64,000 nucleotides of DNA, taken from contig JASXTE010000005.1 of assembly GCA_030280995.1 (NCBI GenBank), forward strand, positions 24,717,001 to 24,781,000, in the 5' to 3' direction. The notes beneath the pieces are model-generated. The model ran no database searches. It was not told the DNA's origin and worked only from the letters and a program-made list of their open reading frames with translations. Shown here one piece after another: positions 5,891-52,469 of this stretch. The stretch is from Hemileia vastatrix. Its lineage: Eukaryota > Basidiomycota > Pucciniomycetes > Pucciniales > Zaghouaniaceae. The position numbers and the translations under genes are program-made. Numbering within the stretch: the stretch's first letter is position 1; the number at the start of each line of letters is the position of its first letter.

Positions 5891-6512
5891 TTACCATGGC
5901 TTGGGCAAGACTTGGATGTGGTTTTTCTTTCTCCTTCTTCCTCCTTGATAGGGATGAGGAGGTGTTGAATTAAACTGCTTTGTTCTTGAAGGACCTGCCT
6001 GAAGTGCTTGTTGCTGTTGCTGTTGGGACAGATAATACCACTGGGTGTTCAGCCAATCTCACTGCCACTTTGAGACTTCCACTTTTTCTTGTTTCTGGGG
6101 GGCCAGTTTTGAAAGGGCTTTTGGAGAAGGAGGTTTCTTCTTCTCATGAAGAAAAGACTCTGTGTTTCTTACCTTGTCTTCTAGACAGTCTATTCTTGAA
6201 CTCAGATTGAGGTTTTCTGTCCTCAACTCCTTGATGTGAGTAGAGAGATTTTTTACCTGCTGGTTTAAGGGCATCTTTTTTATCTTGAAGCCTTTGGGAA
6301 GCCCTTCTGGGGGGCTTTTTGAAGGTTTTTGTTCCTGGGCATTTTTCTCTACCAGAATCTCCACTCCCTCCATTTCCACATCCTGATTGGTTCAATGATT
6401 TATTAATTTTAGCTAATTTTGTAGTTAAAGGAGAACTCACAGAGGTAGCCTCATCATAATCAATCAGATCCAATTCATCTTCACATGCAGCAGAAAAACC
6501 TTGGTCAGTCAT
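5891..6512 (-). pseudogene. Element A ORF1: small coiled-coil protein of unknown function, broken
   Basis: The frame starting at ATG 6379 (MEMEGVEIL) runs toward TGG-TAA at 5893-5891, exactly in frame, but a nonsense codon interrupts it near 6059, just after the conserved VSKWQ. Shared features with B, C and E are the IKKMPLNQQV segment, a leucine-rich coil, a KW motif near the end, and a stop overlapping GTAAGC. An upstream ATG at 6512 opens a different frame, +1 offset, with an acidic N-terminus (EDELDLIDYDEA). No match to a known domain is recognised. Confidence 0.7.
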
Positions 6513-7310
6513 TGTTTTGAATCTAACCTGAAGTGAGGGAAAGAAAAAATAAGATGAATCAGTTTTATTTTTGCTCTTTAAAAGAAAAATAAAAAAGAAA
6601 TAAAATTCTTCAGGAAAAAAATCAACTGAAAATAATAATCAATTATTTATTATTTAAAAATAATCTTATAACCAGGATTTACAAGAAATCAAATGAAGAA
6701 ATAAAAACCAATTTTAATTTAACAAATTAATTTATGATAATTATCAGGATTTAAATCAACTGAAGGATATTTAGTTACCAGGACTCAATGTCAACTGAAA
6801 TAATTTAATATAGTTTTATTTTTAATTAATTATTAAAATTATTATTTTCAGGACAATTTTTCAACTGGAACAAAAAAAATATGTTAATTTATCAGGACAA
6901 AGTCAACTGAAAACTACAACTAATTTAAAAAATAAAAATTTATTACTTTTAAGACTAATAACACAATTGACCTATCTTTGTAAACTAGGAAAAGAAATAA
7001 ATAAAAATAAATTTCAATTTACCAGACACCTCCCCCTGTAAAATCAGCAAATTAATTCCACTTACATAGTTCTGAGTAAAAGGAAATAAATAGAGAATGA
7101 GGAGTGTAAGGTGACCCACAAATAGTAATCAATAATTACCACAAAATATATAACTATTAGTTAGTTTATAAGCCTAAATTTTGGAGTTTGGTTCGATTCT
7201 CTTTTGCAGCAAAAAATAAGTCACATGATATATGAGGTTTGTCGTTTTCATCGCCCACTCGTTCTTATAGGTACCTTGATGGCAATGGTCCCACAGTCTC
7301 TGGTCCTCAA
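6513..7310 (-). other. Element A 5' leader with six serial hairpins
   Basis: Untranslated region between the 5' LTR and ORF1. Six short stem-loops lie at 6609-6630, 6673-6695, 6744-6763, 6779-6797, 6846-6870 and 6892-6910. On the plus strand each reads outer-stem, GA(C/TTT), loop, complement, AA bulge, outer-stem complement; the clearest is TCAG-GAC-AAA-GTC-AA-CTGA. In the element RNA the bulge is UU on the 5' arm. The inner stem varies with compensation (GAC/GTC, GATTT/AAATC). No ORF is supported here. Confidence 0.7.
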
Positions 7311-8154
7311 GATAACAATGTGCCATTGATGATTCAGAAAGATTCCCAACTTTAAAGGGGTCTTTTAGGTCTAGAAGGTTTTACAGGGAGGTCCAATGGC
7401 GATAACAACAGATTTTAAGGGATTCAAACTTAGGTACTTATTTTCCTATCCTTAAGATTATTTACTCAATAATAAGAGGTAATGAGTTGAATTATTATTA
7501 TAATTAATGGATTAGAATTAGGTTTAATGTAAAAACTAAAGCAGTAACAGTTAGTAATAAAGGGATTTGTAAATAGTTGTAATAAAGTTAGTAAGTAATG
7601 AATGAATAAAAAACAACCAAAACAGAGGCCTTATATAGGCAAAGGAGGGACAAATCACGGCAATGAAATTCTAAATACAGTAGTATGAGAGAGAGAGAAA
7701 AAGAATATTCCAGAAGGAGTATTTTAAAATAATAAAGTTGTTCTTAGAAGAAGGCGTCAAAAAGATGTATTTACAGAGTATGTCAGAAATACATCAATTT
7801 ATTTTAATATTTACTGTAGATTTCAATTCTAAATAAGAAATTTGACTTTTTTGTATATATTTATTTTATTTGAATATTAAAATTTTATTTTAATTTAAAA
7901 TCTATTTTTTAATATAAATCTTTATTTCTTCCAACCTGTCAAATGAGCACAGTGTTAAAGAATAAAAATATAAGGGATAATTTTATATTGAATTTTAATT
8001 ATTCATTTAATTTTATCATTCTGTAATTAGTAAATTTATTATAAGTAATTTCAATGTAACTAATTTATAATTTAATAATTAAAATAATAAGGCGTGGCTT
8101 CATCCAGTAAATAATTATTTATTTCACTGGCTAAGTCTAGCAGCCTGGCTAACA
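7311..8154 (-). repeat. Element A 5' LTR
   Basis: The right end at 8154 is the lineage terminus (minus strand TGTTAGCCAGGCTG). The left limit near 7311 is an estimate: to its left, on the minus strand, lies TTGAGGACCAGAG, which resembles the bases following the 5' LTR in B, C and E (ATTGGGGACC, ATTGAGGGCC, ATTGGGGGTC). A TATATAAG box on the minus strand at 7637-7630 is the likely core promoter. Confidence 0.75.
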
Positions 8155-16258: not shown

Positions 16259-17465
16259 GAAGGTAGTTAGTGAAAACCTAAAGGTATGATATCTGGAGTA
16301 GGAGAGAATTTTATTATTATTAGATAATTAGTGATTGATGAGTATATTGAAACACTCAATCATTTGAAAAAATATATTTGGGTAATTTTAAAGAATTTTA
16401 AAAATGTATCAAAGAAGAGATTCAGAGAGAATGAAGCATACTCATAGTAATAGTAGATAATAACAAAAGAATTTTTGAATAGGGGTATCAATTTAGAATT
16501 CTTCTATTTAAAATAATTCTTTTTTACATAAAATACACCATGATTATTCTTTAAAATATGCCATATTGTGCCTCAAAAAAACCTTTTTACTAACAATTAA
16601 TGTCAAGTTTGTTGATTTCTTTTTGTATGGTGAAATACCTTTTAAAAAAATAAAAATTTCTAACCATTACCCCCTAATAAATAAAGCTTGAATAAAAAAT
16701 AAATCTCTAAATGTTCTAGTGCTATTGGAAAAATAATTTTCTTATTCCAGAATTTTGAGAATAAGAAGTGCTGGAAATGGTGTGAGGTATTTCAACTTCT
16801 TGATCTTCATCAAACTTAAACCATTGATATTTAAATACAGAAGTTGTTGGAACATTAATTTAATTTATTAAATTGAAACATCAGACTTATTTCTTAAAAA
16901 TTTATCAAAGATTAAAAAATATTTGATGAATTTAAAAATACCCATACTTTTTTGATGTACCTAACGTTTTATTATATTAATTACTTTTACCTTTTTTTTT
17001 ACCTTGTTTATCCTTTGGATTAGCTTTTGAATTTTTTTAAGGAGCAGCCAAAATGAGTAAAGTCATGACAAGATTCCAAATCTGGAGGAGATTTTGTTGT
17101 TTGGTGATTATGGTGAGAAGAGTTCCAAACTGATTTAATGTCTCCATTTCTTTTTTAAAATCAAATATACATGTTGTGTAAGCCTAAAGTTTAGTATGGA
17201 TATAAGGTTTATTTAGATAGGGCTTACTAGAGATCTTTATTGAGATTGAAAATACTAATATAAACTTTATAATGGTTTATCTTTGAGAAAATGAGTATTT
17301 AAAAGGGTTAAAACGGTTATTTTACAAGTCAAGATTAAACAATTAATTAATGGCCAGAAAACGCAAGTATAGGTCTAAAGGTGTATGGTAATAAAGGGCA
17401 GGAGTCTCAAAAAGTTTAAGGAATTTTTTAGAAATTTTTATTAGTTTTCTTCTATTTTTGATAAT
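16259..17465. other. AT-rich non-coding stretch
   Basis: No supported gene. It contains one short inverted-repeat element at 16482-16674. Part may belong to an LTR of element F: a TGTTGGAACATTAATT at about 16855 would suit an LTR start, but no partner copy is in the window. Confidence 0.4.
16482..16674. mobile_element. Short inverted-repeat element, GGGGGTATC family, copy 2
   Basis: Ends GGGGTATCAA on the left and ATTACCCCC on the right. The interior aligns in inverse orientation with copy 1, sharing GCCATATTGTG-like and AATTAATGTCAAG-like segments. Flanks are gaata and taata, a decayed version of the 5-bp duplication seen at copy 1. Confidence 0.75.
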
Positions 17466-17715
17466 CACCACACAATATGGGGGGTGGACTTGCTAGCAAG
17501 TCTGAAATCTTGGACCCAAACTCAACACAGATTGAACACACAGTGATCTATTGACAAAAGAACCATACAAGCAGGGATGAACACCACTCAGCAGAACAGT
17601 TTTAGGTGGTTGTTCAAGTAGAGTTGAGTATGGGTTTAATATGAGTTCAGTCTGAGTTCCATCTGAGTTCAGGTTGGGGACTTGCTAGTAAGTCCACCCC
17701 CTATATTTCATAGCG
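17466..17715. mobile_element. CACTA-like MITE, copy 1
   Basis: 250 bp. Left end CACCACACAATATGGGG, right end complementary to CGCTATGAAATATAGGGG. The 18-bp palindrome GGACTTGCTAGCAAGTCC follows each end, slightly mutated here. The interior has subterminal repeats of the CTGAACTCA type. The flanking triplets (aat, aga) no longer match. Non-coding. Confidence 0.85.
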
Positions 17716-18524
17716 AGATTTAAAAAATATTTTTGATTATTCTTGATTATTCACAATTACTTAAATTTGATAATTTTTTTACTAGTTCATTAGGGCTGCA
17801 CAAACTACTAAAACTAGATATAATTATAAAAGAGAAGTAGCTCTATAATCTGTAATATTTCTAAACTTTTTATTAATACTTTAAGGTTCTTATTGAAACC
17901 ATAATTCTCTACAAGATCTGTAGATACTCTGGAGATCTCTGACAAGCTCCGGGATGCTCCAGCTTGGAAAAAGGAAGCATGTGACATACTATGCATATAA
18001 AGCCTGAGGACATAAAATTAGAGGAAGGGAAAAACATCAATCTAACATCTTTTATCTTAACAATAACATCATAAATATTAAAAATCAATAACAAATATTA
18101 ACATCTAAAAATTGTAATACCATATAATATCACACTTTACATAACATATTATAAATTTCACTCAACAACATATTCACATATACTTATATGGTACCATTGT
18201 AAAGCTCTCATAATCAGAGAATTGAATTTAACAAATAAATCAAATAAAAATTAAAGCTTCATAAAGAAATAACATTCTATCATATAAATAAATTTTCTGA
18301 AAACAGCTTTACTGTTGCATTTTGTTCCCTAATTATAAAGAACACTGATTATACATCTCAACACTTTATCAAAAAATAGCTTATTGGTCATTTTATATCA
18401 AACAGAGGATTTAGCTTAGTTAATTGTGAAATATTAATTAACTTTAAGGGACAGGTTTCTCTTTGGTTCATCCAACTTCCTTCAATTCTGCTTACAGCAG
18501 TGTGACTGTAAGAGTCTTTCTACA
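17716..18524 (+). other. Possible 5' LTR end and primer site of element F
   Basis: Non-coding AT-rich DNA ending TCTTTCTACA, followed at 18525 by TTGGTGGCACCCAATTTGG. This looks like an LTR terminus (CA) followed by a TGG-type primer-binding site. Gag of F starts soon after. The 3' LTR is not in the window, so LTR length and identity cannot be confirmed. Confidence 0.45.
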
Positions 18525-18663: not shown

Positions 18664-19742
18664 TCTTTTGCTGCTGGATCTGGTGTTTCTCTTCCTGTAG
18701 AAGCATTGGTCAGGATTGTATCTTGGTATGGCCCAAGTTTAATGGGGAAGAAGTTAAATGGTTTTTAAAATTTTATGAAGCTGCTGATTCTGTTGATGGG
18801 GCTTCACATTTAGACATAGTGAAGGAAATTAGGTTCTTTATTGTGTACAGAGAGTTAAAAACTGAGGTCAGTTCTATGGATGGATACAAAAGTTGGGACT
18901 GGTTGAAATTTTCAAATGAGATGGTTGATAGATGTGGAGTTAAATATACTATGGTGGACCTAAACAAGATTTTCAGTTACTGGCAATTAAAGGTATTGTT
19001 TAAACTATGGTGGATTTCAAAAAGTTATGTAGGCAGTTTGATGAAGTGTTGAAATATTTGATTCTGGTGGAGGAGATAGGCCATGAAAATCAGGCAAAGG
19101 ATTTTTTTGGTCATATTTTACTAGGGACATCAGAATGGGTGTGTTAAAGGAGCTTTCTAAAAAAAACTTGATGAAGGAATTACCAAATGGGGAACAGAAA
19201 CTGCCTGCTATAGTGGTCACCAAAGAAAAAATTCAGGAATACTTATAAATAATGGCATTGGACAAGTATCTGGAGTCCTGTACTAAATATGTTAGCAAGG
19301 TTAGTGAAGTTTTGGCCAAAAATAATGATATTATGGTCAAGGCTCAGGGGGCAAAGAAGGCTTAGTTGGGTAAGCCTGTTGCTATGGTTGAGGGGGATGT
19401 TTATAATAAAATGTTAAATAATGTAGCTTACTTAAAAAAGCAGCTTAAAATATAGGTTCAATAAACTCAGAAAGAAAACAGAGTGCCTGTGGATTCATAT
19501 TCTACTTCTTCTTCTTATCAATAAAGAGGCTATGAGAGGAGGAATCATGGATTTAATGGAAATCAAAATAAGTTTCATGGGAATGGCAATGGCAATGGTG
19601 GTAGTAATGGTAATGGTAATGGAGAAAATAGTTTTAGAGGAGGTTATGTAGAACCTAGGGTGTCCTCCTATTGTAACAGAGAATGCATAAAGAAGAAGAT
19701 TGTTATTTTTTGACTTAGGACTTTCAGGCTGGTAGAGTCAAA
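18664..19742 (+). pseudogene. Element F gag, N-terminal and knuckle part, broken
   Basis: Shows PKFNGEEVKWFLKFYEAAD, then KYTMVDLNKIFSYW, an RSAYQ-like linker, a Gly/Asn-rich stretch (about 19550-19640) and the zinc knuckle start SSYCNRECIKKK. This resembles basidiomycete gypsy gag of the type with KYTVADLD, as recalled from family knowledge. Several stops and a shift occur. It is interrupted at 19743 by a MITE. Confidence 0.7.
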
Positions 19743-19992
19743 CACTACGCAATATAGGGGGTGGACTTGCTAGCAAGTCCTCAACCTGAACTCAGATGGA
19801 ACTCAGACTGAACTCATACTGAACCCATACTGAACTCTACTTGAACACCCACCTAAAACTGTTCTTCTGAGTGGTGTTCATTCCTGACTGTATGGCTCCT
19901 TTATCAATAGCTCAATGTGTGTTCAATCTATGGTGAGTTTGGGTCCAAGGTTGCGGACTTGCTAGCAAGTCCGCCCCCCATATTGTGTGGTG
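19743..19992. mobile_element. CACTA-like MITE, copy 2
   Basis: 250 bp, left end CACTACGCAATATAGGGGG, right end ATATTGTGTGGTG. Flanked by aaa on both sides. Both 18-bp palindromes GGACTTGCTAGCAAGTCC are intact. It lies in the opposite orientation to copy 1, inside F gag right after the zinc knuckle remnant. Confidence 0.9.
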
Positions 19993-19995
19993 AAA

Positions 19996-21402: not shown

Positions 21403-21407
21403 GTTTT

Positions 21408-22573
21408 TATCAGCCGGATGTCTAGAATGAAGAAAATAATAGGAATAATAGAAAGAAGGATGGGAATTATAAAGTAGTAAAGTAAAACGAAATAAATTAC
21501 TTGTAATTTAAGGGAGTAAGACGACAAGATAGTTGAGATTTGACAAAGTTGTAAGTGTTTAATTAAATTGTAAAATATTAAAATTGATTATAAATTTTCA
21601 AAGCGTGTCAGTTCAATAATAGTATTATAAATCTTAAGGCAACCTATAATTATTTATATAGTATTTAAATTAGATGTATTGAACTAATAAAAATATTAAA
21701 TAAAAGAAATATATTTAAAATATGATAAGTGAGTGTATAGTAAGTGATGAGCTACCAGAGAGACTTCTAAAGCCCTTTTATAGGCAAGATGACATTCTGG
21801 AGCGTTCCAATAGTATGTAAAAAAAAGTAAAATAATGTGAAACAATTAATTAAAAGAATCTAATTAAAATCATAAAAAAAATCCGTGAATAAACGAATAT
21901 TTTCCCATCAGTAATTTCTAAAAAAGAATAGAATATAACAATTAACTACGTGAGTATGAAAAAATGAGAACTGTGAGAAAGAAATCTAAAGAAAGAATAC
22001 AAATAGCTGAAAAAAGTATAATTAAAATAAAAAGAATTACTTTTACGCTTTTAAATAATCTTCATTCAGTATAAGCAATAGTAATTTAACTATTTCAAGT
22101 AAATTAACTATTAAATTAATTGAACAACTAATTAAATTAATACAGGAACTTTTTAACATGAGCATTTAAATTTAATCATATTAAATTAATTTAATAATAT
22201 AGGTGAAACAATTAAGGGTCAAGGAAGTTCCAAATATTGATGGATATTATTTTATGATAAGTTGCATTTAGTTTATATAAATGTTATTATTAAAATTGTA
22301 ATAACTGTGTAAGTTAAATTTACACTTATAATATAATTTTGAATAATTTATTTATACATATAAATCACGCCATGATCTTATAGAATATTATATTTGTTTA
22401 TGTAATACAATTTATTTAATAATAAAATTAAGTATAATATTTATTTTATTCATTCACAAAATATTTATAATTTTATTTAAATAATTTTTTGTATTTACAT
22501 AAAGTTATTCCTCTATATGTTTACAGTAATTTATTGTATAAATTACTGGACTCCTGAGATAGCCTGGCTTACA
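21408..22573 (-). repeat. Element C 3' LTR
   Basis: 1166 bp, plus-strand start TATCAGCC and end GGCTTACA, close to the lineage inverted terminus TGTCAGCC/GGCTGACA. It aligns with 39053-40491 except for the MITE in that copy. A minus-strand TATA box (CCTATAAAAG) lies at 21784-21775. Confidence 0.92.
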
Positions 22574-22646: not shown

Positions 22647-24147
22647 TGTCAGCCTGTATATCTCCAGGACTGAGTAAAAAGTAATTATAAGTTATTTTAA
22701 ACACATGAACTATACATGGGAATAATAAATAAGAGTACACAAATAGTATACATAAGTAAAATTATGATAATACACAAAAAATGCCATTATAACACCTTAT
22801 ATACACGCATATATCCACCTTTTATAGGTCTTATGTACTTAATATTAAGTTGGAATATTTTAGGGTAATCTTAAGAACCTTAAGTATAAGGCTACATAAT
22901 TTTTAAGTACACTTAAAGCTGTTATATTCATTGTTTTATGCAAAAAACAAGAAATGCGCTTTATTTCACTTAAAAGTTGACTATATGCGCTATAAAATTG
23001 AGAATATCAAAATTGCGCTTTGACATATCAATTGGGCTCATTTAGAACTATTGATTTGGCTATTTAAATGCATAAAAATAACACTTTTCAAATTTGGTGT
23101 TTTTTATGCCAGAAATGGCTTCTGTGTACTGGCCACATACTGCCTGCTTTTTTCCCGTGTGAATAGCTTCATTTTTAGCAAAGTTAGCTTTTTCACACTA
23201 TAATTACCCCACATTCTACGCCCACTGTGGGGAAACACACTAAAATAGGCGACAGGCGCTTATTTAGTGTCCTAGCTTAATTAATAATGCATTGACCTTG
23301 TTTATATGCACTAATTTCATTAATAACCTCACTCTTGGCATTTTATTTCATCACCACGCTTAAATTCTCCTAATTTTAGTCAAGGATTTACCCGTGCAAG
23401 AGCCTGCCAAGAACTGCATGTAGTTACCCCACATCTCACGCTCTTTTTTACGTTTTTGGGTGGTTTCTCAGTCAATTTTGGTTATTTTTGAATGGGAATT
23501 TCACGTAGTATAATGTCAGGATTAGCCCCATTATTTCTACAGTCAATCCCCCTTATTATTAAGCTATTATTAACCTTAAAAAGTCTCCTTTAGTCTTTAA
23601 TATTATTGTTTTATACGCATATACTCTCTTTTTGTCTTTTCCTTTAATTTTGATGGATTTCCCTTATTATTACAGGATTTTGGCGGTTGTTACTCTTCTA
23701 ATTATGTCATGGGTTACTGGGAATGTTGATGGGAATGTCTATTAGTTGTTTAGAGGCGTTATTAACTGTGTATTGGGTGGTACATCAAGGGAATCATTGG
23801 GGAACTCAGTGTGTATAAAAGGAGGAGGTTTTTGGGTTGTATTTCTGCATTCTTTATCATTACAATTTAACCAATATAACCAAATCAATTACAATACATA
23901 TCAATTAGTACTTTTATAAGACTTTTGAGTAGTATCTGAATTTATATAATCTATATTTCTACCAACTATAAAGATTGTAAGCCATATATAAGAATAGTGA
24001 GAATTATATTACTGAGACCTTTATATTTGATTATATTTTACAACTTAGTGGATTAAAACTACAGTATTCATATAGGACCATTAAAATATTCTAGACAACT
24101 GACTATTCAAGCTAGTTCACGTCCTTGTACTTGACCTTAGCCTGACA
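22647..24147 (+). repeat. Element B 5' LTR
   Basis: Starts TGTCAGCCTGTATATC and ends TTAGCCTGACA. It is almost identical to 30787-32287. It contains a promoter TATA box at 23814-23820. Confidence 0.96.
23814..23820 (+). promoter_or_regulatory. TATA box in the element B LTR
   Basis: TATAAAA followed by GGAGGAGG, about 330 bases before the LTR end. The same box is in the 3' LTR at 31954-31960. Confidence 0.6.
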
Positions 24148-24731
24148 ATTGGGGACCTTTCCTCAAGAATTCTGTTATAATCCTGTAAGTGAAATTATCA
24201 AAAGAAGGTGCACGTAAATAATATCCCTATAGAAATATTTGGATAATTACAACAGGTTGGGGTCACTTATATAGTGATTTCAGAAAAAGAAGCCCTGTTA
24301 TATAATAAAATTGTGATATTGAATCATCAATTTTACCACTAATTTAACATATAATTGTTCTTAGTGGGAGTCTGTCAATAGACCAATTAAATTTGTGATC
24401 TTTGCAGATAATAACCAATTAAACTGATTAATTGTTTTCTTTTTACAGGACTCTTAATCCCTTTTTATTGGTTTGTAAAATTCATTTAATATTTAAAAAG
24501 AATCTTACTAACAAATTTTCTTTTTTAAATATAAATACACGGCTACATATTGTAGACCAGTTAAATCAAGTGACCACATAAAAGCATATTTGACTTTTGT
24601 CACTTAAAAATTCACTTAATACCAATAAGTAAGCAATAAAATTGTCTTCAGTGGTACTAATAAATACTGATTAAACTCCTTTTTGAAGTTTTTCAAATCT
24701 AAACTTTCAATTCTCTAAAATTCCACAAAAA
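24148..24731 (+). other. Element B 5' leader with several hairpins
   Basis: Begins ATTGGGGACCTTTCC, the presumed primer-binding region. Stem-loops visible: 24263-24277 (TCACT/AGTGA), 24307-24334 (AAAATTG/CAATTTT), 24336-24367 (CCACTAA/TTAGTGG), 24370-24383 (GTCT/AGAC), 24416-24433 (CAATTAA/TTAATTG), 24568-24605 (AAGTGAC/GTCACTT). No ORF is supported before the ATG at 24732. Confidence 0.6.
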
Positions 24732-26129
24732 ATGTGTGACAACAATGACATTGTAAGTAATAAGGCAAAACCTTATAACTTAAGAACTAGAGCTGAAAGA
24801 CCTGTTGCAGGATATCCAAATGGAGGGTCAAGAATCACCAGTAACAATAAACAACACCCCACCAATGTCCATGGAGGAAAAGGAAAAGCTCTTAAAACAA
24901 ATGTCAATAAAGAAGTCCAAAAACACCTTACAAGAGCAAATTCACTCCCTCTCAACCCTACTGAATACACTAACAATAAGAGTAAACAATATGTTATACC
25001 AGATCAACAATCTGGAGAAAAGGGTGGCACAGGGCTTTATAGAAGTCAACCAGGCTCTAGTGGATATAAGGTCTCATCAACAACCAGTGGCACCAAATAC
25101 CACAGCAACACCTCCAGTCCCAGAAGAGGACCAAAAGATAACTGTAAGCAAATGGAAGTGGGATTGGTATGCCCAAAACTACAACAGTCCTCCTCAACAA
25201 GGATCCAGCAGTCACCCTTACAGGGGAAAGCCAAGGAGAGGCAGGGGAAATGGAATAAGACGGTGGTAAGTCATCCATCTTCTCAAGATCAATTATATAA
25301 TCCTAACAATGAATTACTTATAGGTAATGAAATTGATAGAGAGTTATTGGATATAATTGATAAGGATTTAAAAAATTATTCATTTGAAAATAACATGTTA
25401 GACTTGTCATTACATGAGGACAATGTACATAGTTTTATTGATCACCAGGAAAATACTATTAATATAAAAATGGAATCAAATGAAGAAAAAATTGGCCCTG
25501 ATGATGAATCTTCTGAATTGGAAACAGACAAAATTGAATATTTTCTGAAAGAAAATCCAATGGAATCAAAAATAATTAGTAAATTATTATTGAGAATTGA
25601 AAAATTGGAAGAATTTTCTAGAGAGTCCAACAATAATACAGAAAGTGTATTATTAAACATCACACAATCATTGAGTAAAACAGCCAATAAGTTAAAAATT
25701 ATTGAGAATTCAAATAATGAATTGATCAATGAAAACAAAAGATTAAATTCTGAGATTAAAAATTTAGAAATTAAATTAGAACATTCTCAGAATATTATGG
25801 CCACCATAGAGGGACGTGTAAAATTGTCTTTTTCAAATGTAAATGATACTTTAACTCATGTACCTGTAATAAAAGATAGGTTACAAAGAGTAGAAATTGA
25901 GGTAGCCAACATTTTGAAAAATACTGAAACAATAAAGGATAATACCTCTTATGTAGAAAGAGTACCAGTTTTTATGAAACACTCTGATGATAAACCAATG
26001 ATGGAACATGAACATAGTGTCATGGGCTCTGAGAGTATAAAATCAGTAAAAGATGAAATTAATGATCATCTTTCTAAATTGAGTGAATTACTCAATATTC
26101 CTCAGGTTAGGGAAGCTAAAACTAGCTAA
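24732..26129 (+). CDS. Element B upstream frame running into the gag coiled coil
   Basis: 465 codons from ATG 24732. The first 20 residues or so (KPYNLRTRAE) have a counterpart in E (PAYNTRSKAN). The middle overlaps ORF1 in another frame and is probably not meaningful. From about 25290 it is the real gag N-terminus: an acidic stretch followed by a long coiled coil (ENSNNELINENKRLNSEIK) near residues 315-370. It ends at TAA 26127-26129 immediately before NWPKLDQYP; elements A, C and E read Gln-Lys-Asn-Trp there, so a CAA-to-TAA nonsense change is likely. Confidence 0.7.
   Translation: MCDNNDIVSNKAKPYNLRTRAERPVAGYPNGGSRITSNNKQHPTNVHGGKGKALKTNVNKEVQKHLTRANSLPLNPTEYTNNKSKQYVIPDQQSGEKGGTGLYRSQPGSSGYKVSSTTSGTKYHSNTSSPRRGPKDNCKQMEVGLVCPKLQQSSSTRIQQSPLQGKAKERQGKWNKTVVSHPSSQDQLYNPNNELLIGNEIDRELLDIIDKDLKNYSFENNMLDLSLHEDNVHSFIDHQENTINIKMESNEEKIGPDDESSELETDKIEYFLKENPMESKIISKLLLRIEKLEEFSRESNNNTESVLLNITQSLSKTANKLKIIENSNNELINENKRLNSEIKNLEIKLEHSQNIMATIEGRVKLSFSNVNDTLTHVPVIKDRLQRVEIEVANILKNTETIKDNTSYVERVPVFMKHSDDKPMMEHEHSVMGSESIKSVKDEINDHLSKLSELLNIPQVREAKTS
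24820..25269 (+). CDS. Element B ORF1: small coiled-coil protein of unknown function
   Basis: 149 codons from ATG 24820 (MEGQESPVT) in an AAATGG context. The start is chosen because MEGQ is also conserved in element E. The order is SMEEKEKLLKQ, a leucine-rich coil (SLSTLLNTLTIRV), a KWKWDW motif, HPYRGK, and a basic tail ending RRW. The stop TAA at 25267 lies inside GTAAGT, a splice-donor consensus. An ATG at 24732 opens another frame (+1 offset) over the same DNA. It may bind nucleic acid or help assemble gag particles, but that is a guess from the basic tail and coil. Confidence 0.7.
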   Translation: MEGQESPVTINNTPPMSMEEKEKLLKQMSIKKSKNTLQEQIHSLSTLLNTLTIRVNNMLYQINNLEKRVAQGFIEVNQALVDIRSHQQPVAPNTTATPPVPEEDQKITVSKWKWDWYAQNYNSPPQQGSSSHPYRGKPRRGRGNGIRRW

Positions 26130-29100
26130 AAGAACTGGCCTAAGTTAGATCAGTACCCTTCTTTTGACGGGGATTCAAAATCTGATTGGCAACAATTCAT
26201 ACAAAGAATTGATAACTTAAAATTTTCATATAAATTACCTGATGAAGAAATTACTTCAAAGTTAATATCTTTATTTACAGATGTGGCCTTATTATGGTTT
26301 GAATCAGTATTGAGTGAGGGAATTAATTACTCCTGGAATGAATGGAAGGCACTAATTGAACGGCAATTTGGTGGCCCAAAATTTAGAATCACTCAACAAA
26401 GACTGTATGAAAGGGCCAGATATAATCCAAATGCTGGAGATAAACCCATGGTCTTCTTAATGAATTTAATAAAAATCATGAAAGCTATGGATCCAAAAAT
26501 GGATTATGAAGAGTGGAAAGAAAAAATAATATACAAATTGCCTATATCAGTTAGAGACATTATTGTAGCTAGAACTGAAACTGTCAGAGACACCTCTGGA
26601 TTCATTAATATATGCAATGAGATATTATTAAACCACAAGTATGAAACCAAGTATAGTAATTACAGACAAAGTGTTGACGTGGTAAAACCTACTACAAGTA
26701 AGTTACCAGTGGAAAAGAAAAAACCTTCAGCTCCCCTTGTCCCTAAGAGACAAGAAAATAACACTTGTTACAAATGTAATGAACCTTGGGTTAAAGGTCA
26801 CACGTGTAAGAAAAGAATAAATGTTATTGAAACCTCACAGAATTCTGAACCTAGTAATCATGAAGATGAGAATGTGGAATCCAGTGAGGATTGCAAGAGT
26901 AACATATCTTACAGTGATGATGAAAATGAGATATTTGTATTAGAACAGGATAAAATGTTCCTGAATGATGCTATACCTAATACAGACACATCTTTAACTT
27001 CCATAGAGGAAGCTGAAATAATTAAAGATGTATCTCATGACACTTACAAAATAACACCTATCAGAGCACCTATTATCATATGTGGAAAAGAAATGAATGC
27101 CATTCTTGACACTGGGGCTGCAGGTAGTGTAGTTTCACTTAATGCATTAATGAAACTTGATAGTAAGTACCAGGAAAAACTAGAACCTGTTCAGACAAAG
27201 AACTGGAGGGGTTTTGGTTCAGTATTAAATCCAATTGGCAAATACAAAACTGCTGTATTCTTTAAATATAATAATGGATATGTTAGAGCAGTTTGTGAAT
27301 TTGTAGTAATGGATAATAATAATTGTAGTGATTGGTTTATTATTGGCAATGATTTATTGACAAAATTTGGCATTAAACTAGATCCTGCAAACAGTTGTTT
27401 CACCATAGGGGTGAATGGTAAAAGGAAATTCAAAATATGTTCTGAAAATTCAGTATATCCCATTTCTCCTAGAGAAGAACAACTGCAAGGTGGAAGAACC
27501 ACCAATGAAGTGGGTGAATTGGAAAATGAAATCCAAAAGGCCTCTTTCAGTCCTCAACTCTCAAAAATGGAACAAGAAGACATTTTAAGATTGATTAAAT
27601 CATATCCTATGGCATTTGCTCATAGATCAAATGAACTAGGATTGGTCAAAGACCATGAGATGAAAATCTCTCTAAGCTGTGATCTGGATAATATTCCTGG
27701 CAGCTTAAAAAAGAAACCTTACCCAGCATCTCCTGCAAAAAGGAAAGATATTGAAGACAATATAAAATTGTTATTGGAAATGGGTATTGTTGAAAAAGTG
27801 GACACAACACCTAAGTATTGTGTCATTTCACCAGTATTAATCTCTTATGAAAAAGATAAGGCAAGATTATGCGGTGATTATAGAGCTCTGAATACATATA
27901 CAGTAGATGATATTTACCCTCTACCAAGGATAGCTTCTATCCATGCTACCTTACAAGGAGCAAAATATATTTCCTGTCTGGATGGGAACAAGGGTTACCA
28001 CCAGATTCCTGTGGAAAGAAATTCTCAAAATTACTTATTAATAACCACACATATGGGTATATATAAGTATGTGAGAATGCCATTTGGCCCAAAGAATTCC
28101 CCTTCAGTCTTCCAAAAATTGATGGATAGTGTTTTTCATCAGGAAATGGTTGAAGGATGGCTATTGGTCTATATTGATGACATCATAGTGTTTTCAAAGA
28201 CATATGATGAACATTTAAATCACCTGAAAAGAGTCTTTCAAAAAATGGATGAAATTAATATGACTATTGCATTAAAGAAATGTAAGTTTGGATTTCAATC
28301 CTTGAAAGTACTTGGACATGTTGTATCTGGATTACAAATTTGTGTTGACCAGAATAAAGTGGCAGCAATTAAAAACATTGGGATACCTAAAAATGTAAAA
28401 GAGGTTCAAAGTTTTTTGGGTATGTGTGGATATTATAGACAATATATTAAAAATTACCAATCCATTGCAGCCCCTTTAACAACATTAATCATGAAGAATG
28501 AAGCTTTCATTTGGAATAATGAAAGACAACACGCCTTTAATAAATTAAAGGAATGTTTAATGTCAGCTCCAATATTAGGACTGCCAGATTTCACCCTACC
28601 TTTTATCTTGTACACTGATGCAAGTTTCATAGGTTTGGGTGCTGCTTTACAGCAGAAACAGATAATAAATGGAAAATTATCTGAAGTAGTTATCTGTTAT
28701 ATATCCAGAACCTTAAGAAAAACAGAATTAAGGTATGGTGCCACACATCTAGAATGTTTAGCCGTGGTGTGGGCTTTGGAGAAACTTCATTACTATCTGG
28801 AAGACCAGAAGTTTGAACTTATAACAGATTGCAGTGCAGTAAAATCATTACTAAACATGAAAACACCTAATAGGCACATGTTTAGATGGCAACTAGCCAT
28901 ACAAGAGTACAGAGGAAGAATGAAAGTCACTCACAGAGCAGGAACATTGCATTCAAATGTGGATTTATTATCCAGAAGTCCTTTGCCAAATGATGCTGAC
29001 AACCCAGCTTATGTACCTGAAAATGAGGTTATACATATATTTGGGATTTATATAGTGGATTTAGAAGAAGAGTTTATGCAAACTATATTGGAAAATTATT

Positions 29101-30242
29101 CATCTGATAAAGATTTGTCTAAACTATCTACCATTCTTAATGATCCAACAAATGCCTCCATGAGTGCATTAATTAAAACCTTGCCTCCAAAGTATAAAAA
29201 TGCGTTGGAAAAAGGTAAACTATCAATTGAAGATGGATATATATATTACAGGAAAAAGTTAAGCAATGTAATAGTAATACCACCTTCTATGAAAGAGTTA
29301 ATGTTGAGTACTTGTCATGATGACATCTTAGCTGTTCATTTTGACTTTAACAAAACATTAACCAGAGTTAAAAATACAGCCTGGTGGATAAACATGAAAG
29401 AGGATTTACAAAAATACATTGAAACATGTGACTCTTGTCAGAAATCTAAAAGATTAAATGGGAAGAGAGCTGGGTTGTTACAACAAATAGAGCAGCCAAA
29501 AGCTCCATGGGAAATTATAAACATGGATTTTGTAACTGGCTTGCCATTAGCAGGAAAAGAAAGTTTCAATTCTTGCTGGGTAATAGTGGATAGATTAACA
29601 AAAATGTGTAAGTTTATCCCTACCCATAAAGAGGTATCTGCTAAAGACTTGTCGTTACTATGGTGGAATCAGATGATGAATACTGCTGGGTTCCCCAAAG
29701 CCATAATCTCTGACAGAGATCCTAAATTTACTTCAGAGTTCTGGACATCTTTGATGGAAGTATCAGGTTGTCAATTAAAATTGTCTATAGCACACCATCC
29801 ACAAACTGATGGGCTGGCTGAGAGGATGATACAAACTCTAGAAGACATGATCAGAAGATATTGTGCCTTTGGATTAGAATACAAAGACAATGAGAAATTC
29901 ACACATGACTGGGTAACATTAATTCCTGGCCTTGAATTTGCTTATAACAGCACAACTCATTCTGTAACAGAGAAGAAACCATTTGAACTCTGGCTGGGAT
30001 ATGTACCAAGTACCCCAGTAAATCATTTAAATAAACTACCAAGGTTGGATATACACCCTGGCACTAAATCCTTTATTCATATGCAACAAATGTGTAGAAA
30101 GCATGCAGAAGAATGCATCCAAAAAGCAATTGAATATGAAAAGAAAAGGTGGGACAAATCTCATAAAGAATTTGAATTGAAAAGGGAGATGAAGTCCTCA
30201 TATCAACACTACATTTTAACTTACAAGGTAATGTTAAATTAA
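26130..30242 (+). pseudogene. Element B gag-pol polyprotein: capsid, protease, RT, RNase H, integrase
   Basis: Open for about 1370 codons. Residue numbers count from 26283. Capsid (front half upstream of residue 1, then FGGPKFRITQQRLYE), zinc knuckle CYKCNEPWVKGHTC at 162, protease DTGAAG at 276, RT YIDDI at 630, RNase H DASFIGLG at 779, integrase zinc finger from about 1012 (H...H with CDSC), catalytic D1082, D1144 and E1180, giving the D,D35E spacing. All catalytic residues are present. It is separated from the capsid start by the stop at 26127. A 1-bp deletion near 30180 shifts the frame, so it ends at 30242 instead of continuing into the chromodomain. Confidence 0.95.
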
Positions 30243-30604
30243 AGGATCCCTTTGTAGGACCTTTTGTAGTAAATAAAATGGTTGGTAATAATGCAGTGGA
30301 AGTCATATTATATGCTCCATATGATAGGAAACATCCAGTTTTCCCTATCTCATTATTGAAACCTTACCATGCAAATGATCCTGACTTATTTCCAAAAAGA
30401 AGGGGAAGGCCTAAAAAGCAACCTGAAGTAATTGTGGAAAAAGCAGAGATTGAAAAAATACTCAAGAAAAGAATCCTTACTAAGGAAAAAGGAACTGAGT
30501 ATTTACTAAGATTTAAAGGGAAATCAAATGAATTTGATAAATGGATACCTGAAAAAGAAATTTCTAATTTATCCACCCTTCTTAAAAAATTTAAACAGAA
30601 ATAA
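30186..30604 (+). pseudogene. Element B integrase tail and chromodomain, out of frame with pol
   Basis: After the 1-bp loss the frame continues here: DPFVGPFVVNKMVG, HPVFPISLLKPY, a basic RRGRPKK hook, then a chromodomain with EYLLRFKGKS and KWIPEKEI, ending TAA 30602-30604. Chromodomains of this type bind histone-tail marks and steer integration into heterochromatin (family knowledge). An insertion inside another element fits that. Confidence 0.88.
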
Positions 30605-30786
30605 ATTTCTGTTCAACCAGCTGAGGGGTTAAAAAACCAGTACTCATAATATTTTATTATGTTTTATTTCTTTAAAGTTGAATCTTTAATGCTACAGATT
30701 TATTCTGAATACCTGAAAATTACAAATTAAATAAAATAAAATGTATAACTTATCATTTTTTTTATTGTTTTTTTTGGGTGGGCGAG
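30605..30786 (+). other. Element B 3' untranslated region and polypurine tract
   Basis: Non-coding. A T-run (TTTTTTTTATTG then eight Ts) precedes GGGTGGGCGAG at 30776-30786, next to the 3' LTR. Element E has the same T-run and a similar purine tract at 63009-63020. T-rich boxes upstream of the tract are common in LTR elements. Confidence 0.7.
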
Positions 30787-32287
30787 TTTCAGCCTGTATA
30801 TCTCCAGGACTGAGTAAAAAGTAATTATAAGTTATGTTAAACACATGAACTATACATGGGAATAATAAATAAGAGTACACAAATAGTATACATAAGTAAA
30901 ATTATGATAGTACACAAAAAATGCCATTATAACACCTTATATACACGCATATATCCACCTTTTATAGATCTTATGTACTTAATATTAAGTTGGAATATGT
31001 TAGGGTAGTCTTAAGAACCTTAAGTATAAGGCTACATAATTTTTAAGTACACTTAAAGCTGTTATATTCATTGTTTTATGCAAAAAACAAGAAATGCGCT
31101 TTATTTCACTTAAAAGTTGACTATATGCGCTATAAAATTGAGAATATCAAAATTGCGCTTTGACAGATCAATTGGGCTCATTTAGAACTATTGATTTGGC
31201 TATTTAAATGCATAAAAATAACACTTTTCAAATTTGGTGTTTTTTATGCCAGAAATGGCTTCTGTGTACTGGCCACATACTGCCTGCTTTTTTCCCGTGT
31301 GAATAGCTTCATTTTTAGCAAAGTTAGCTTTTTCACACTATAATTACCCCACATTCTACGCCCACTGTGGGGAAACACACTAAAATAGGCGACAGGCGCT
31401 TATTTAGTGTCCTAGCTTAATTAATAATGCATTGACCTTGTTTATATGCACTAATTTCATTAATAACCTCACTCTTGGCATTTTATTTCATCACCACGCT
31501 TAAATTCTCCTAATTTTAGTCAAGGATTTACCCGTGCAAGAGCCTGCCAAGAACTGCATGTAGTTACCCCACATCTCACGCTCTTTTTTACGTTTTTGGG
31601 TGGTTTCTCAGTCAATTTTGGTTATTTTTGAATGGGAATTTCACGTAGTATAATGTCAGGATTAGCCCCATTATTTCTACAGTCAATCCCCCTTATTATT
31701 AAGCTATTATTAACCTTAAAAAGTCTCCTTTAGTCTTTAATATTATTGTTTTATACGCATATACTCTCTTTTTGTCTTTTCCTTTAATTTTGATGGATTT
31801 CCCTTATTATTACAGGATTTTGGCGGTTGTTACTCTTCTAATTATGTCATGGGTTACTGGGAATGATGATGGGAATGTCTATTAGTTGTTTAGAGGCGTT
31901 ATTAACTGTGTATTGGGTGGTACATCAAGGGAATCATTGGGGAACTCAGTGTGTATAAAAGGAGGAGGTTTTTGGGTTGTATTTCTGCATTCTTTATCAT
32001 TACAATTTAACCAATATAACCAAATCAATTACAATACATATCAATTAGTACTTTTATAAGACTTTTGAATAGTATCTGAATTTATATAATCTATTTTTCT
32101 ACCAACTATAAAGATTGTGAGCCATATATAAGAATAGTGAGAATTATATTACTGAGACCTTTATATTTGATTATATTTTACAACTTAGTGGATTAAAACT
32201 ACAGTATTCATATAGGACCATTAAAATCTTCTAGACGACTGACTATTCAAGCTAGTACATGTCCTTGTACTTGACCTTAGCCTGACA
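30787..32287 (+). repeat. Element B 3' LTR
   Basis: 1501 bp, ends CCTGACA, matches the 5' LTR. The second base is changed (TTTCAGCC instead of TGTCAGCC). It is followed by the duplication gtaga. Confidence 0.96.
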
Positions 32288-37740: not shown

Positions 37741-38368
37741 ACCATGGCAAGGGAAGAAAATTCCCCTGTGCCTTCTTTCTTCTGCCCCCCTGATAAGGAT
37801 GGTGCTGAAGAGATGGATTGTAGTTTGGTGTCCTGGATGGGCCAGGGTGTTGAGCTGGTTTTTGTACATTCTGTTGATAGTGGGTCATTAAGTAATCCCA
37901 TTTCGATTGTTCCACTTGCAGAATGCCTTGGTTTTGGTTGAGGGAGCGGGATACCTGACTGGCCTGAGGTTGATGCTGAGGTTGGGAAGCTGGGAAATGA
38001 GGATGTTGAACCTGTTTGGGATTTGAAATCTCCTGCATCTGCTGCCAGAGGGTGTCTACCTTTGCCTTGTACTTCATGCTTTCAGCTCTCAGTTCCTATA
38101 TATGGCTTGACAGTTTGTTTACCTGTTGTGCTAGAGGAATCTTTTTTATTTTTATACCTCTGAGTGGATTGTCCTGATGTACCTGAGATTTTACTTCTTC
38201 AGAGTTGTTAGGTGAGAGGGGTTTGTCACTTCTCCTGAAATTTCTACGTCCTGAAGGTTTTTTGTCAGCTGAATTATTTTTGTAAGCTACTTTGGGAGAA
38301 CCTACAGATTCAGTATCAACATCCACTTCATTCTCATACACATGTAAGTTATCCATGCTTTTAGCCAA
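37739..38368 (-). pseudogene. Element C ORF1: small coiled-coil protein, one nonsense codon
   Basis: ATG 38368 (MAKSMDNLHV) to TGG-TAA at 37739, 209 codons in a single frame except for TAG near 38095, where element A has Lys (THIKELR). It shows IKIKKIPLAQQV, a coil, a proline/glutamine-rich middle, SKWDYL (counterpart of KWKWDW), HHPYQGGRRKK and a C-terminal PW. The TAA lies in GTAAGT (minus strand 37742-37737). Unlike A, B and E the acidic N-terminus is in the same frame as the rest. Confidence 0.78.
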
Positions 38369-39052
38369 GCTACTGGATATTTAAGACTGTGAAAAAGGAG
38401 AATCAAAATTAATTCCAATTTAAATTGTTAATTCAAAATAAAATATAATCAATTGGATTTAAAAAACATTTTTTATTAAAAATAAATTAATTATAAAATA
38501 AAATGTAATACAAATAAATGAAATTACAATTATTAAGAATTAATAACAATTAAAATGGGACCAACAAATAAGGTTTAAGAAGTCAACCAAAATAATTAAT
38601 ACCAAAATTAATTCAATGGTAAAATTGGGACTAAGTACTGAGTACTATTATGGTCAACCAATATCCAATAAATAATAATAAAGTTAATTTATTAATTTAT
38701 TAAATATTTATTGTCTTCTAGGACTAAGAGTTTTACTCTATTATGGTCAACTAGGAAAAAAAAATTTTTAATATAATGAAAACTTACACTCAGTGAATCA
38801 GCAATTAAGCCACAAACACTGTTATTGCAGTAAAAATATAGTACTATGTGTGAGAGGTTTAAAGGTGAACTTACTATAGTTATTGTAAAATCACTTCAAA
38901 ATAATATATAATTTAATGTAATATAAACCTAAACTATTGAACTCAAGTTTGATACACGGTTGCGGCAAAATTTTATTTTTTGGCTTGGGTGGTCCGTGCG
39001 CTTTGTCTTTTGTCGCAAAGTGTCATCGTTGTCTTTCGGATAGGCCCTCAAT
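38369..39052 (-). other. Element C 5' leader with three bulged hairpins
   Basis: Non-coding. Plus-strand hairpins at 38556-38589 (TGG-GAC ... GTC-AA-CCA), 38624-38662 (ATTGG-GAC ... GTC-AA-CCAAT) and 38716-38756 (CTAG-GAC ... GTC-AA-CTAG). The inner GAC/GTC pair and AA bulge are constant while the outer stem changes with compensation. The hairpins share their architecture with those of element A. The segment next to the LTR reads ATTGAGGGCCTATCC on the minus strand, the presumed primer region. Confidence 0.72.
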
Positions 39053-40491
39053 TATCAGCCAGATGTCTAGAAGAATGAAGAAAATAATAGGAATAATAGA
39101 AAGAAGGATGGGAATTATGAAGTAGTAAAGTAAAATGAAATAAATTATTTGTAATTTAAGGGAGTAAGACAACAAGATAGTTGAGATTTGACAAAGTTGT
39201 AAGTGTTTAATTAAATTGTAAAATATTATAATTTATTATAAATTTTCAAAGCGCTTCAGTTCAATAATAGTATTATAAATCTTAAGGCAACCTATAATTA
39301 TTTATATAGTATTTAAATTAGATGTATTGAACTAATAAAAATATTAAATAAAAGAAATATATTTAAAATATGATAAGTGAGTTTATAGTAAGTGATGAGC
39401 TACCAGAGAGACTTAAAAGCCCTTTTATAGGCAAGAGGACATTCTGGAGCGTTCCAATAGTATGTACAAAAAAGTAAAATAATGTGAAACAATTAATTAA
39501 AAGAATCTAATTAAAAACATAAAAAATAAATCCGTGAATAAACAAATATTTTTCCAATCAGTAATTTCTAAAAAAGAATAGAATTTATATAACAATTAAC
39601 TACGTGAGTATGAAAAAATGAAAACTGTGAGAAAGAAATCTAAAGAAGGAATACAAATAGCTGAAAAAAGTATAATTAAAATAAAAGGAATTACTTTTAC
39701 GCTTTTAAATAATCTTCATTCAGTATAAGCAATAGTAATTTAACTATTTCAAGTAAATTAACTATTAAATTAATTGAACAACTAATTAAATTAATACAGG
39801 AACTTTTTAACATGAGCATTTAAATTTAATCATACTAAATTAATTTAATAATATAGGTGACACAATTAAGGGTCAAAGAAGCGCCAAATATTGATGGATA
39901 TTATTATATGATAAGTTGTATTTAGTTTATATAAATGTTATTTTTAAAATTGTATTTAATGTGTAAGTTAAATTTACACTTATAATATAATTTTAAATAG
40001 TTTATTTATACATATAAATCACGCCATGATATTATAGAATATTTTATTTGTTTATCACCACACAATATGGGGGGCGGACTTGCTAGCAAGTCCGCAACCT
40101 TGGACCCAAACTCACCATAGATTGAACACACATTGAGCTATTGATAAAGGAACCATTCAATCAGGGATGAACACCACTCAGCAGAACAGTTTTAGGTGGG
40201 TGTTCAAGTAGAGTTCAGTATGGGTTCAGTATGAGTTCAGTCTGAGTTCCATCTGAGTTCCATCTGAGTTCAGGTTGAGGACTTGCTAGCAAGTCCACCC
40301 CCTATATTGCGTAGTGTATTTAATACAATTTATTTAATAATAAAATTAAGTATAATATTTATTTTATTCATTCACAAAATATTTATAATTTTATTTAAAT
40401 AATTTTTTGTATTTACATAAAGTTATTCCTCTATATGTTTACAGTAATTTATTGTATAAATTACTGGACTCCTGAGATATCCTGGCTGACA
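39053..40491 (-). repeat. Element C 5' LTR with a MITE inside
   Basis: Aligns with 21408-22573 apart from an extra block at 40056-40316. Starts TATCAGCC, ends GGCTGACA. It is followed by the duplication gtttt. Confidence 0.92.
40056..40316. mobile_element. CACTA-like MITE, copy 3, in the element C LTR
   Basis: 261 bp, left CACCACACAATATGGGG, right ATATTGCGTAGTG, flanked by tat on both sides. It is absent from the other LTR of C at the matching place, so it is a clean insertion polymorphism. It happened after C inserted. Confidence 0.95.
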
Positions 40492-44534: not shown

Positions 44535-45231
44535 CTTTAATTGTCAAAAAATTTCAATGAATCAAAAAAATTATAATTTATGTGATGGTTATATGAATTC
44601 ATAAAAGAATGTAACATTCATATAATGGGTGAAATTAGTTTATATTAAGAAAATTAGGTTGAAAAGAAATTTATTCAAAAATTGGACAAGGGGTACACAT
44701 TACACATGAGAACAAGAGGTGAATAATAGAAAAATTGACCAAAATTCCAGGCAATATTGCAAATGAGAAAGATATATGCAATAAAAATTAAGTGTAGTTT
44801 TATCACAGTTAAATTTACCATTATAATTAAAGATCTATTAAAGAACTATAATTATATGAAATCTTATATTACAAAATCAATTATCAATTGAAAATTTGGT
44901 AGGGGGTGACAGCTTATATAGGCAAAAAGTTAATGGACGTTCAAAAGCTGAAAAAAAATAGCTAAATTAGTAAGATGCAAGAAGAAAATTGCATCCAAAA
45001 TAAATAACTTTCATTGGTGAACTAGAAAACAGAAAATGGAAAAAGTACCCAGCAAATGAAAAAAAGTGTCTCCTGAACAGAAAATAGTGAGAAATTTAGG
45101 TACGGTAGCATCATGATAGCTAGCACACAAAACCTTCCTTTATCTAATTAAAAAAAATGTTGCGCCAAAAAAATCCTAGTCTATATTTCAGTGAATTCGC
45201 TTGTGCCAACCCCTGATCCATTATAGATGCA
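44535..45231. other. Non-coding spacer in the CACTA transposon
   Basis: AT-rich, no ORF. Follows the transposase stop and leads into the tandem repeat. Nothing further recognised. Confidence 0.4.
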
Positions 45232-50757: not shown

Positions 50758-50760
50758 TAA

Positions 50761-51021
50761 CACTAAGAAATATAGGGTGTGGACTTTCTAGCAAGTCCTC
50801 AAACTGAACTCAGATGGAACTCAGATGAAAATCAGACTGGACTCATACTGAACCCATACTGAACTCTACTTGACCACCCACCTAAAACTGTTCTTCTGAT
50901 TGGTGTTCATCCCTTTTTTTATGGTTCCTTTATCAATAGCTCAATGTTTTTTCACTCTGTGGTGAGTTTGTGTCCAAGTTTTCAGACTTGCTAGCAAGTC
51001 TGCCCCCCATATTGTGTGTTG
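50761..51021. mobile_element. CACTA-like MITE, copy 4
   Basis: 261 bp, left CACTAAGAAATATAGGG, right ATATTGTGTGTTG, flanked by taa at 50758-50760 and 51022-51024. The palindrome is slightly mutated on the left (TTTCTAGC) and intact on the right. Confidence 0.92.
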
Positions 51022-51024
51022 TAA

Positions 51025-52213: not shown

Positions 52214-52216
52214 AGT

Positions 52217-52466: not shown

Positions 52467-52469
52467 AGT

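Follow-up and report, generated by a model that had tools for sequence, protein, structure and literature searches.

We describe here an array of short RNA hairpins in the leader, ahead of gag, of a Ty3/gypsy-type long terminal repeat (LTR) retrotransposon (element A) of the rust fungus Hemileia vastatrix. The element lies in a 64,000-nucleotide stretch of contig JASXTE010000005.1 (assembly GCA_030280995.1, positions 24,717,001 to 24,781,000), which we call the window and number from its first letter. Similar hairpins stand in the leader of a relative within the window (element C) and in a third family elsewhere in the genome (family E). Our analysis supports the view that repeated, individually weak RNA hairpins are a property of the leader of one lineage of such elements, and that selection keeps their shape, namely an outer stem, UU on the 5′ arm, a G-C and an A-U pair and, as a rule, a third pair. 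Between one family and the next, the letters of the stems, the loops and the number of hairpins change. The six hairpins of A reported in the initial annotation are exactly where it had placed them, on the minus strand, which is the sense strand of A, and they share the single plan it had described, in which an outer stem is followed by a UU bulge on the 5′ arm, then by a G-C and an A-U pair and a loop. The window copy follows this plan imperfectly. Five of the six have at least three Watson-Crick outer pairs, but the fifth is mismatched beside the bulge, and the third inner pair is absent from the second and sixth. A seventh hairpin, A0, had been overlooked; it is decayed in the window copy and intact under our rule in 15 of 30 genome copies.

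The hairpins of A and C exceed what their leaders would yield by chance, as judged from 5000 dinucleotide shuffles of each leader (the leaders of A, C and of two further elements, B and D, span 510-620 nt, the lengths of A and C being approximate because the lower end of their LTRs is inferred). Under a rule of at least three Watson-Crick outer pairs, TTGA..TC and a loop of 3-10 nt, leader A holds five hairpins against a shuffle mean of 0.09, and none of the 5000 shuffles reaches five; the longer-looped leader C holds none under this rule. With a third Watson-Crick pair added and loops of 3-30 nt, leader C holds three, all GAC/GTC (shuffle mean 0.05, 0/5000). When GAC/GTC alone is accepted, with loops of up to 30 nt, C has three (mean 0.001) and A two (mean 0.0016), counts reached in 0/5000 shuffles each. 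Allowing any third pair gives four in leader A, one of which is an A/T-only match outside the array (6991-7020). The same any-third-pair rule finds 28 matches on both strands of the whole 64 kb, six of them array members, and because of the 22 others single matches carry little meaning and it is clusters that count. A covariance model of the kind proposed in the initial annotation, trained on the six hairpins of A and the three of C, ranks the same nine best in the window (E values of 1e-4 to 0.014, the next being 0.2), although these members match by construction. Rfam gave no match at curated score, and at E values up to 1 only sR14 (16.6 bits, cut-off 38) and mir-4703 (24.5 bits, cut-off 88), both off the hairpins.

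The initial annotation had taken the compensated changes as a sign of selection on RNA structure and had named covariation as the test. That interpretation is strongly supported, since compensated changes go beyond both shuffled and slid controls. For the nine window hairpins, a count that uses window letters alone and is thus free of any choice of variant, the covariation score is 0.354 against 0.219 in shuffles (0/500), and 84.5% of cells pair against 78.4% (4/500 as high). Sliding the partner columns by 1-3 lowers both pairing and score, and when whole 3′ arms are swapped at random as many outer pairs are retained in only 150 of 20000 trials. That five of the eight pairs vary on both sides is less striking alone (42/500 shuffles as high), and the count of different pair types is unremarkable (466/500). 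The comparison of C1 with C2 is direct: of their 12 differences, ten fall in five pairs in which both partners have changed and pairing is kept, the other two are in the terminal loop, and no change is left uncompensated. When 12 changes are scattered at random, all 12 pairs survive in 474 of 1,000,000 placements. C1 and C2 are probably duplicates, because flanking loop letters are common to both. The alternative that the initial annotation had set against selection, a decayed minisatellite, is disfavoured for A because the spacers share no unit and plan sites vary less than spacers do. These spacers (23, 49, 14, 47 and 42 nt) consist almost wholly of A+T and show no relation to one another by eye, and Tandem Repeats Finder reported nothing at 6609-6910. 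G+C is concentrated in the hairpins, at 46/126 positions against 13/175 in the rest of the array for A and 40/110 against 10/90 for C.

Copies of the two leaders were collected from the whole assembly (747,610,610 bases in 791 contigs). The A leader gave 3317 first-look candidates; we scored the best 40 (89-100% identity) and fetched 30 copies, among them that of the window. The C leader gave 2235, with 40 scored and 30 fetched. The fetched copies are those nearest to the window's own and not a random sample. Most of the window copy's faults are not seen in the majority of copies: the bulge-adjacent pair of A5 is formed in 27 of the 29 copies with letters there, and the third pair of A6 (T-A or T.G) in 21 of 27. 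Other copies do share the third-pair fault of A2, where the pair is formed in 19/30 and not in 11/30; pair -4 of A2 is a C-A mismatch in nearly all copies (paired in 1/30), and pair -4 of C3 a T-T mismatch paired in 0/30. By eye, C3 in its commonest form (17/30 copies) carries an apical AACC/GGTT stem, which the window copy no longer forms intact. The GA/TC pairs are formed in 27-30 of 30 copies each in A and C, the common part being G-UU-GA ... UC-C. Variability was taken as non-majority letters among the other 29 copies, and the ratios are given without a formal test. In A, variant letters number 54/2435 in the plan, 62/1215 in loops and 177/5025 in spacers. The difference between plan and spacer is seen at A/T sites (11/1305 against 156/4706) and at G/C sites (43/1130 against 21/319), and a second letter in at least four of the 29 copies occurs at 0/84 plan sites against 10/175 spacer sites. 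The corresponding counts for C are 8/1218, 30/1971 and 35/2610. Because plan sites vary less than spacers among copies, this suggests that the plan was held while families A and C multiplied.

A plan-based genome pattern with a TG/CA outer-stem start, TGTTGACN{3,15}GTCCA (1637 matches against 626 for the reversed control), led to family E, which has arrays at two places (L064 and L065). Its hairpins include CTAG.TT.GAC..GTC.CTAG, the counterpart of C1 and A0, and AATATTG.TT.GAC..GTC.CAATATT, present twice; L065 also holds ATTGG.TT.GAC..GTC.CCAAT, and L064 has one more match (219-238) upstream of the leader. Each E leader holds three GAC/GTC hairpins against shuffle means of 0.001 and 0.004 (0/3000 each), and with any third pair 1/3000 and 9/3000 shuffles are as high. 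When A, C and E are counted together, with one real variant per hairpin, 14 hairpins give 11 distinct arm rows. For A0, A2, A5, A6 and C3 a non-window variant was entered, the A6 row being the second commonest form (5/30; the commonest, 7/30, has a T.G third pair). In this set 97.4% of cells pair against 84.0% in shuffles (0/500), and the covariation score is 0.530 against 0.228 (standard deviation 0.044; 0/500). Four of seven pairs vary on both sides (78/500 shuffles as high), and the count of pair types is again unremarkable (338/500). Three pairs are invariant: the G-C just beneath the bulge and, on its other side, the G-C and the A-U, both of these demanded by the search rule; UU, GA and TC likewise belong to that rule and are constant by construction, and in E2 and E3 the core and pairs -1 and -2 are set by the search pattern, leaving pairs -3 to -7 free. 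The GA-to-TC distance ranges from 5 to 26 nt across the 14 hairpins, and the shape is nonetheless kept. By eye, a unit of about 140 bp with one hairpin is present in three to four tandem copies at both E loci, where additional plan hairpins, in a decayed state, are also legible. Many of the other listed rows for the pattern that led to E proved to be a different repeat, without the plan in the one place read (L066), and the TGTTGACN-pattern core occurs once in element C, at 33905 on the minus strand. A second pattern, GGTTGACN{3,15}GTCCC, was rejected: its 103 matches fall below the reversed control (309), and its largest group, GGTTGACTTGCTAGCAAGTCCC (20 listed rows exact by eye and about 15 close variants), is in three places (L061-L063) a lone palindrome beside a G or C run. 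At those three places and in the 20 exact rows the repeat carries a 16-nt palindrome, GACTTGCTAGCAAGTC, between G and C runs.

The array sits in a splice-like setting. In A, C and E it is preceded by a donor-like GTAAGT and followed by a CAG in a pyrimidine-rich setting, close to the gag ATG; in E (L065) GTAAGT stands at about 192 and TTTTCAG ends 5 nt before an ATG at about 1270. The motif GTAAGT has a density of 0.36-0.41 per kb and strand in the window, and leaders A, C, B and D contain 1, 2, 1 and 0. Splicing is plausible because gag itself has intron-like sites at matching places, with a first donor-like site soon after the ATG and a second further on (Table 1). The second has the form TG/GTAAG, where the exon frame reads tryptophan-stop, and in A, B and C an acceptor-like YAG/GTAAT then follows. 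Between the two sites one frame is the best conserved of those compared in all six pairs of elements. This conserved second frame was at first read as an overlapping accessory gene; a spliced gag exon is as likely, because of the matching intron-like sites and the in-frame phase (by eye), and we do not claim a separate gene. In all four elements the exon before the second donor ends with a basic (lysine/arginine-rich) stretch after HPY-x-G. Its product had no relative at E ≤ 0.001 among 137 candidates, and a structure model gave a long helix of modest confidence (mean predicted local distance difference test score, pLDDT, 67).

Several results weigh against the idea of functional hairpins in an unspliced leader RNA. 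The six A hairpins are weak alone (-0.4 to -3.4 kcal/mol), and for A2 and A5 the best fold differs from the plan. Energy alone does not yield the fold: with z scores from 60 shuffles each, leader A is no stabler than its shuffles (z -0.97) and C reaches z -1.78. Pair probabilities in the full leaders are 0 to 0.4 for the A hairpins and under 0.1 for C2 and C3; only C1 of the nine is favoured (about 0.7). The planless leaders fold better than shuffles (B, z -3.3; D, z -2.2) and may hold other structures. Leaders B and D contain one (256/5000 shuffles as high) and no plan hairpins, and as these sister elements do without the plan, elements of this kind do not in general require it. Element A is old in its window copy, with LTR pieces 84.5% identical and frames broken. 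The splice motifs are only a few letters long, and the divergence of the leaders would by itself leave them in roughly the 26-28 of 30 copies observed; for GTAAGT the neutral expectation is about 24 (A) and 27 (C) of 30, from 3.6% and 1.8% changed letters per site nearby. Splicing of the leader, folding of the hairpins and binding of a protein are, moreover, predictions. If the hairpins do form, they are probably held by protein or folded during RNA synthesis.

The roles suggested in the initial annotation (packaging, dimerisation, translation control or priming) are still guesses, to which our analysis adds the position of the hairpins between splice-like sites in three families. We think it most likely, with about an even chance, that the array serves as a docking platform with several sites, by which unspliced genomic RNA is marked, probably to be packaged. 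Each hairpin would be a protein docking site at which the bulge and neighbouring pairs are read, and several sites would provide avidity. Lying within a leader intron, the sites would be carried solely by unspliced, full-length RNA, which they could mark for packaging by Gag or for export past splicing, much as retroviruses mark theirs through a packaging signal that lies beyond the major splice donor. We favour the docking platform because of the TAR/7SK-type secondary structure of the hairpins (TAR, the trans-activation response element) and the basic end of the gag exon in all four elements. A more elaborate circuit, by analogy with TAR and the Rev response element (RRE), would have an arginine-sandwich array, present only in intron-retaining RNA, read cooperatively by a basic element protein made from spliced RNA, the product of the exon with HPY-x-G and the lysine/arginine-rich stretch at its end. 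We regard this as improbable; if true, it would mean that the element tells genome from message.

The main rival, unlikely in our judgement, is splicing control, in which a factor bound by the hairpins, or the sequestering of sites within them, leaves some RNA unspliced and intron retention is itself the benefit. In its favour, the hairpins of all three families have a donor-like site before them and an acceptor-like site after them, and the 5′ arm in A is itself a pyrimidine-rich CAG, with the arms at 6864, 6759 and 6625 called acceptor-like in the window copy. The 5′ arms of C2, C3, E2, E3 and E5 end in GG or TG, not AG, however, which means that hiding a 3′ splice site is not what has been conserved. 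We see a still slimmer prospect for a part in reverse transcription or dimerisation, with hairpins pairing between two genomes or aiding primer placement or strand transfer. They do lie early in the RNA, where Ty1 has such signals according to passages of PMC4974528, but loop length and letters vary among hairpins and families, unlike a shared kissing loop, and hairpin number and position vary between families.

Slightly less probable again is translation control of gag through a bound or structured leader. The A array ends about 100 nt ahead of the gag ATG, as this would lead one to expect, but the hairpins are weak, and a leader intron, if real, would leave the array absent from spliced mRNA. 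We give the same low weight to host-facing or neutral origins, whether hairpins of a small-RNA precursor, a DNA-level protein site or a decayed minisatellite. The tandem repetition, by eye, of the one-hairpin unit of about 140 bp in E speaks for such an origin, but compensated arms are needless for a site in duplex DNA, the stems are very short for a small-RNA precursor, and a minisatellite fits poorly with the A spacers, which lack a shared unit by eye, and with the conservation of plan sites among copies. In these families, which have 3317 (A) and 2235 (C) first-look candidates within a single genome, evolution has in effect carried out the mutagenesis: the shape persists while many letters change, and this singles out the nucleotides to probe.

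Table 1. Hairpins, splice-like sites and element landmarks in the window (copies are those fetched from the genome; hairpins are written 5′ to 3′ on the sense strand).
Feature	Position	Strand	Description
Hairpin A0	6949..6988	minus	CTAG TT TAC .. GTC TTAA in window copy, decayed; counterpart of C1; descriptor matched in 15/30 copies
Hairpin A1	6892..6910	minus	TCAG.TT.GACTTTGTC.CTGA; descriptor matched in 25/30
Hairpin A2	6848..6868	minus	CCAG.TT.GAAAAATTGTC.CTGA; third inner pair missing in window copy; descriptor matched in 15/30
Hairpin A3	6778..6798	minus	TCAG.TT.GACATTGAGTC.CTGG; descriptor matched in 17/30
Hairpin A4	6744..6763	minus	TCAG.TT.GATTTAAATC.CTGA; descriptor matched in 18/30
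Hairpin A5	6672..6696	minus	TCAT.TT.GATTTCTTGTAAATC.CTGG; bulge-adjacent pair broken in window copy; descriptor matched in 16/30
Hairpin A6	6610..6629	minus	TCAG.TT.GATTTTTTTC.CTGA; third inner pair missing in window copy; strict descriptor matched in 7/30
Hairpin C1	38718..38754	minus	CTAG.TT.GAC[..AGAGT AAA ACTCT..]GTC.CTAG; descriptor matched in 26/30
Hairpin C2	38624..38662	minus	ATTGG.TT.GAC[..AGTAC TCA GTACT..]GTC.CCAAT; descriptor matched in 28/30
Hairpin C3	38556..38589	minus	TGG.TT.GAC..GTC.CCA; descriptor matched in 26/30
Donor-like GTAAGT, A	7060..7065	minus	upstream of the A array; kept in 26/30 copies
Acceptor-like CAG, A	6528..6530	minus	after pyrimidine tract, 15 nt before gag ATG; YAG kept in 26/30
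Donor-like GTAAGT, C	38782..38787	minus	upstream of the C array; kept in 27/30
Acceptor-like CAG, C	38387..38389	minus	30 nt before gag ATG; YAG kept in 28/30
gag start codon, A	6510..6512	minus	proposed
gag start codon, C	38354..38356	minus	proposed
gag segment, A	6440-5894	minus	between two donor-like sites; second site GTAAGC
gag segment, B	24753-25266	plus	between two donor-like sites
gag segment, C	38305-37742	minus	between two donor-like sites; first site GTAGGT (by eye)
gag segment, D	57076-57598	plus	between two donor-like sites
LTR pieces, A	1-444 and 7678-8154
Element B	22649-32287	plus	LTRs 99.1% identical over 1499 bp
3′ LTR, C	21407-22573	minus	lower end cut short
Leader, B	24148-24735	plus
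Leader, D	56547-57056	plus

The window has a G+C content of 31.6% and holds four Ty3/gypsy-type LTR elements, A and C on the minus strand and B and D on the plus strand. Element A carries reverse transcriptase, integrase and a chromodomain between its LTRs, in separate open reading frames (RVT_1, 6.9e-24; Integrase_H2C2, 2e-06; Chromo, 5.1e-09), as a Ty3/gypsy chromodomain LTR retrotransposon does. Reverse transcriptase and integrase matches were obtained for A and B; C is assigned to A's type through 75% DNA identity to A, and D through about 75% identity to B. From the LTR positions, B appears to be inserted within C. The pol of B has 852 protein relatives, and the named ones among the 120 listed come from rust fungi, other Pucciniomycotina and a pseudoscorpion (Cordylochernes). 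Scans of viral contigs turned up no relative. Other repeats in the window are four tandem copies of a 110-bp unit at 45231-45666 (91% matches) and a 200-290 bp repeat, in both orientations and with an 11-bp tandem (GTTCAGTATGA-like), at 17457-17740, 19734-19993, 40047-40341, 50760-51025 and 52208-52478.

Among known systems, the dispersed packaging signals of RNA viruses consist of several degenerate hairpins, each weak, with a short recognition core in common. The A, C and E leaders offer the same combination of weak, degenerate hairpins and common core. The viral sites are spread over the genome, whereas those described here sit close together, within the leader of an LTR retrotransposon. 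At the level of secondary structure the hairpins are also candidates for a TAR/7SK-like arginine sandwich, as UU, G-C and A-U are present in all 14, these letters being part of the search rule. According to passages of PMC6189040, the arginine in TAR and 7SK is capped by a bulge pyrimidine, which joins the pair two steps above the bulge in a triple, and the nucleotide that precedes the bulge serves as the base. Both there and here a pyrimidine bulge is followed by one pair and then by an A-U pair able to take the bulge U in a triple, and the two-U bulge of 7SK stem-loop 1, U40U41 below A43-U66 (PMC6189040), has the UU-G-A spacing of our hairpins. A G before the bulge is not unusual, since the nucleotides before three 7SK caps are G74, G70 and C62 (PMC6189040). 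The pair below the bulge does differ, being G-C here against A22 in TAR and A39-U68 at the UU site of 7SK, and the present hairpins share no loop homology and occur in many copies.

Among retrotransposons, Cer1/CERV of C. elegans is a Ty3/gypsy-type element that, in the account of PMC10309623, uses splice sites and must export unspliced genomic RNA; ours is of the same type, with sites that are only splice-like. The passages of that paper describe no RNA site for CERV. Packaging of Ty1 and Ty3 depends on cis signals in the first few hundred bases of genomic RNA, early in the RNA as are our hairpins, and the passages of PMC4974528 on these signals describe no array of this kind. A literature search on conserved RNA structure in retrotransposon leaders surfaced only plant long intergenic non-coding RNA work, although a description may be in print elsewhere. 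Even for Ty1 and Ty3 of yeast, again going by passages of PMC4974528, the way in which an LTR retrotransposon chooses its full-length RNA is poorly defined. If the hairpins bind Gag or another element protein, they would give a fungus a compact, multi-site form of RNA recognition, to be compared with the packaging signals of viruses and with the way in which bulges are recognised in TAR and 7SK.
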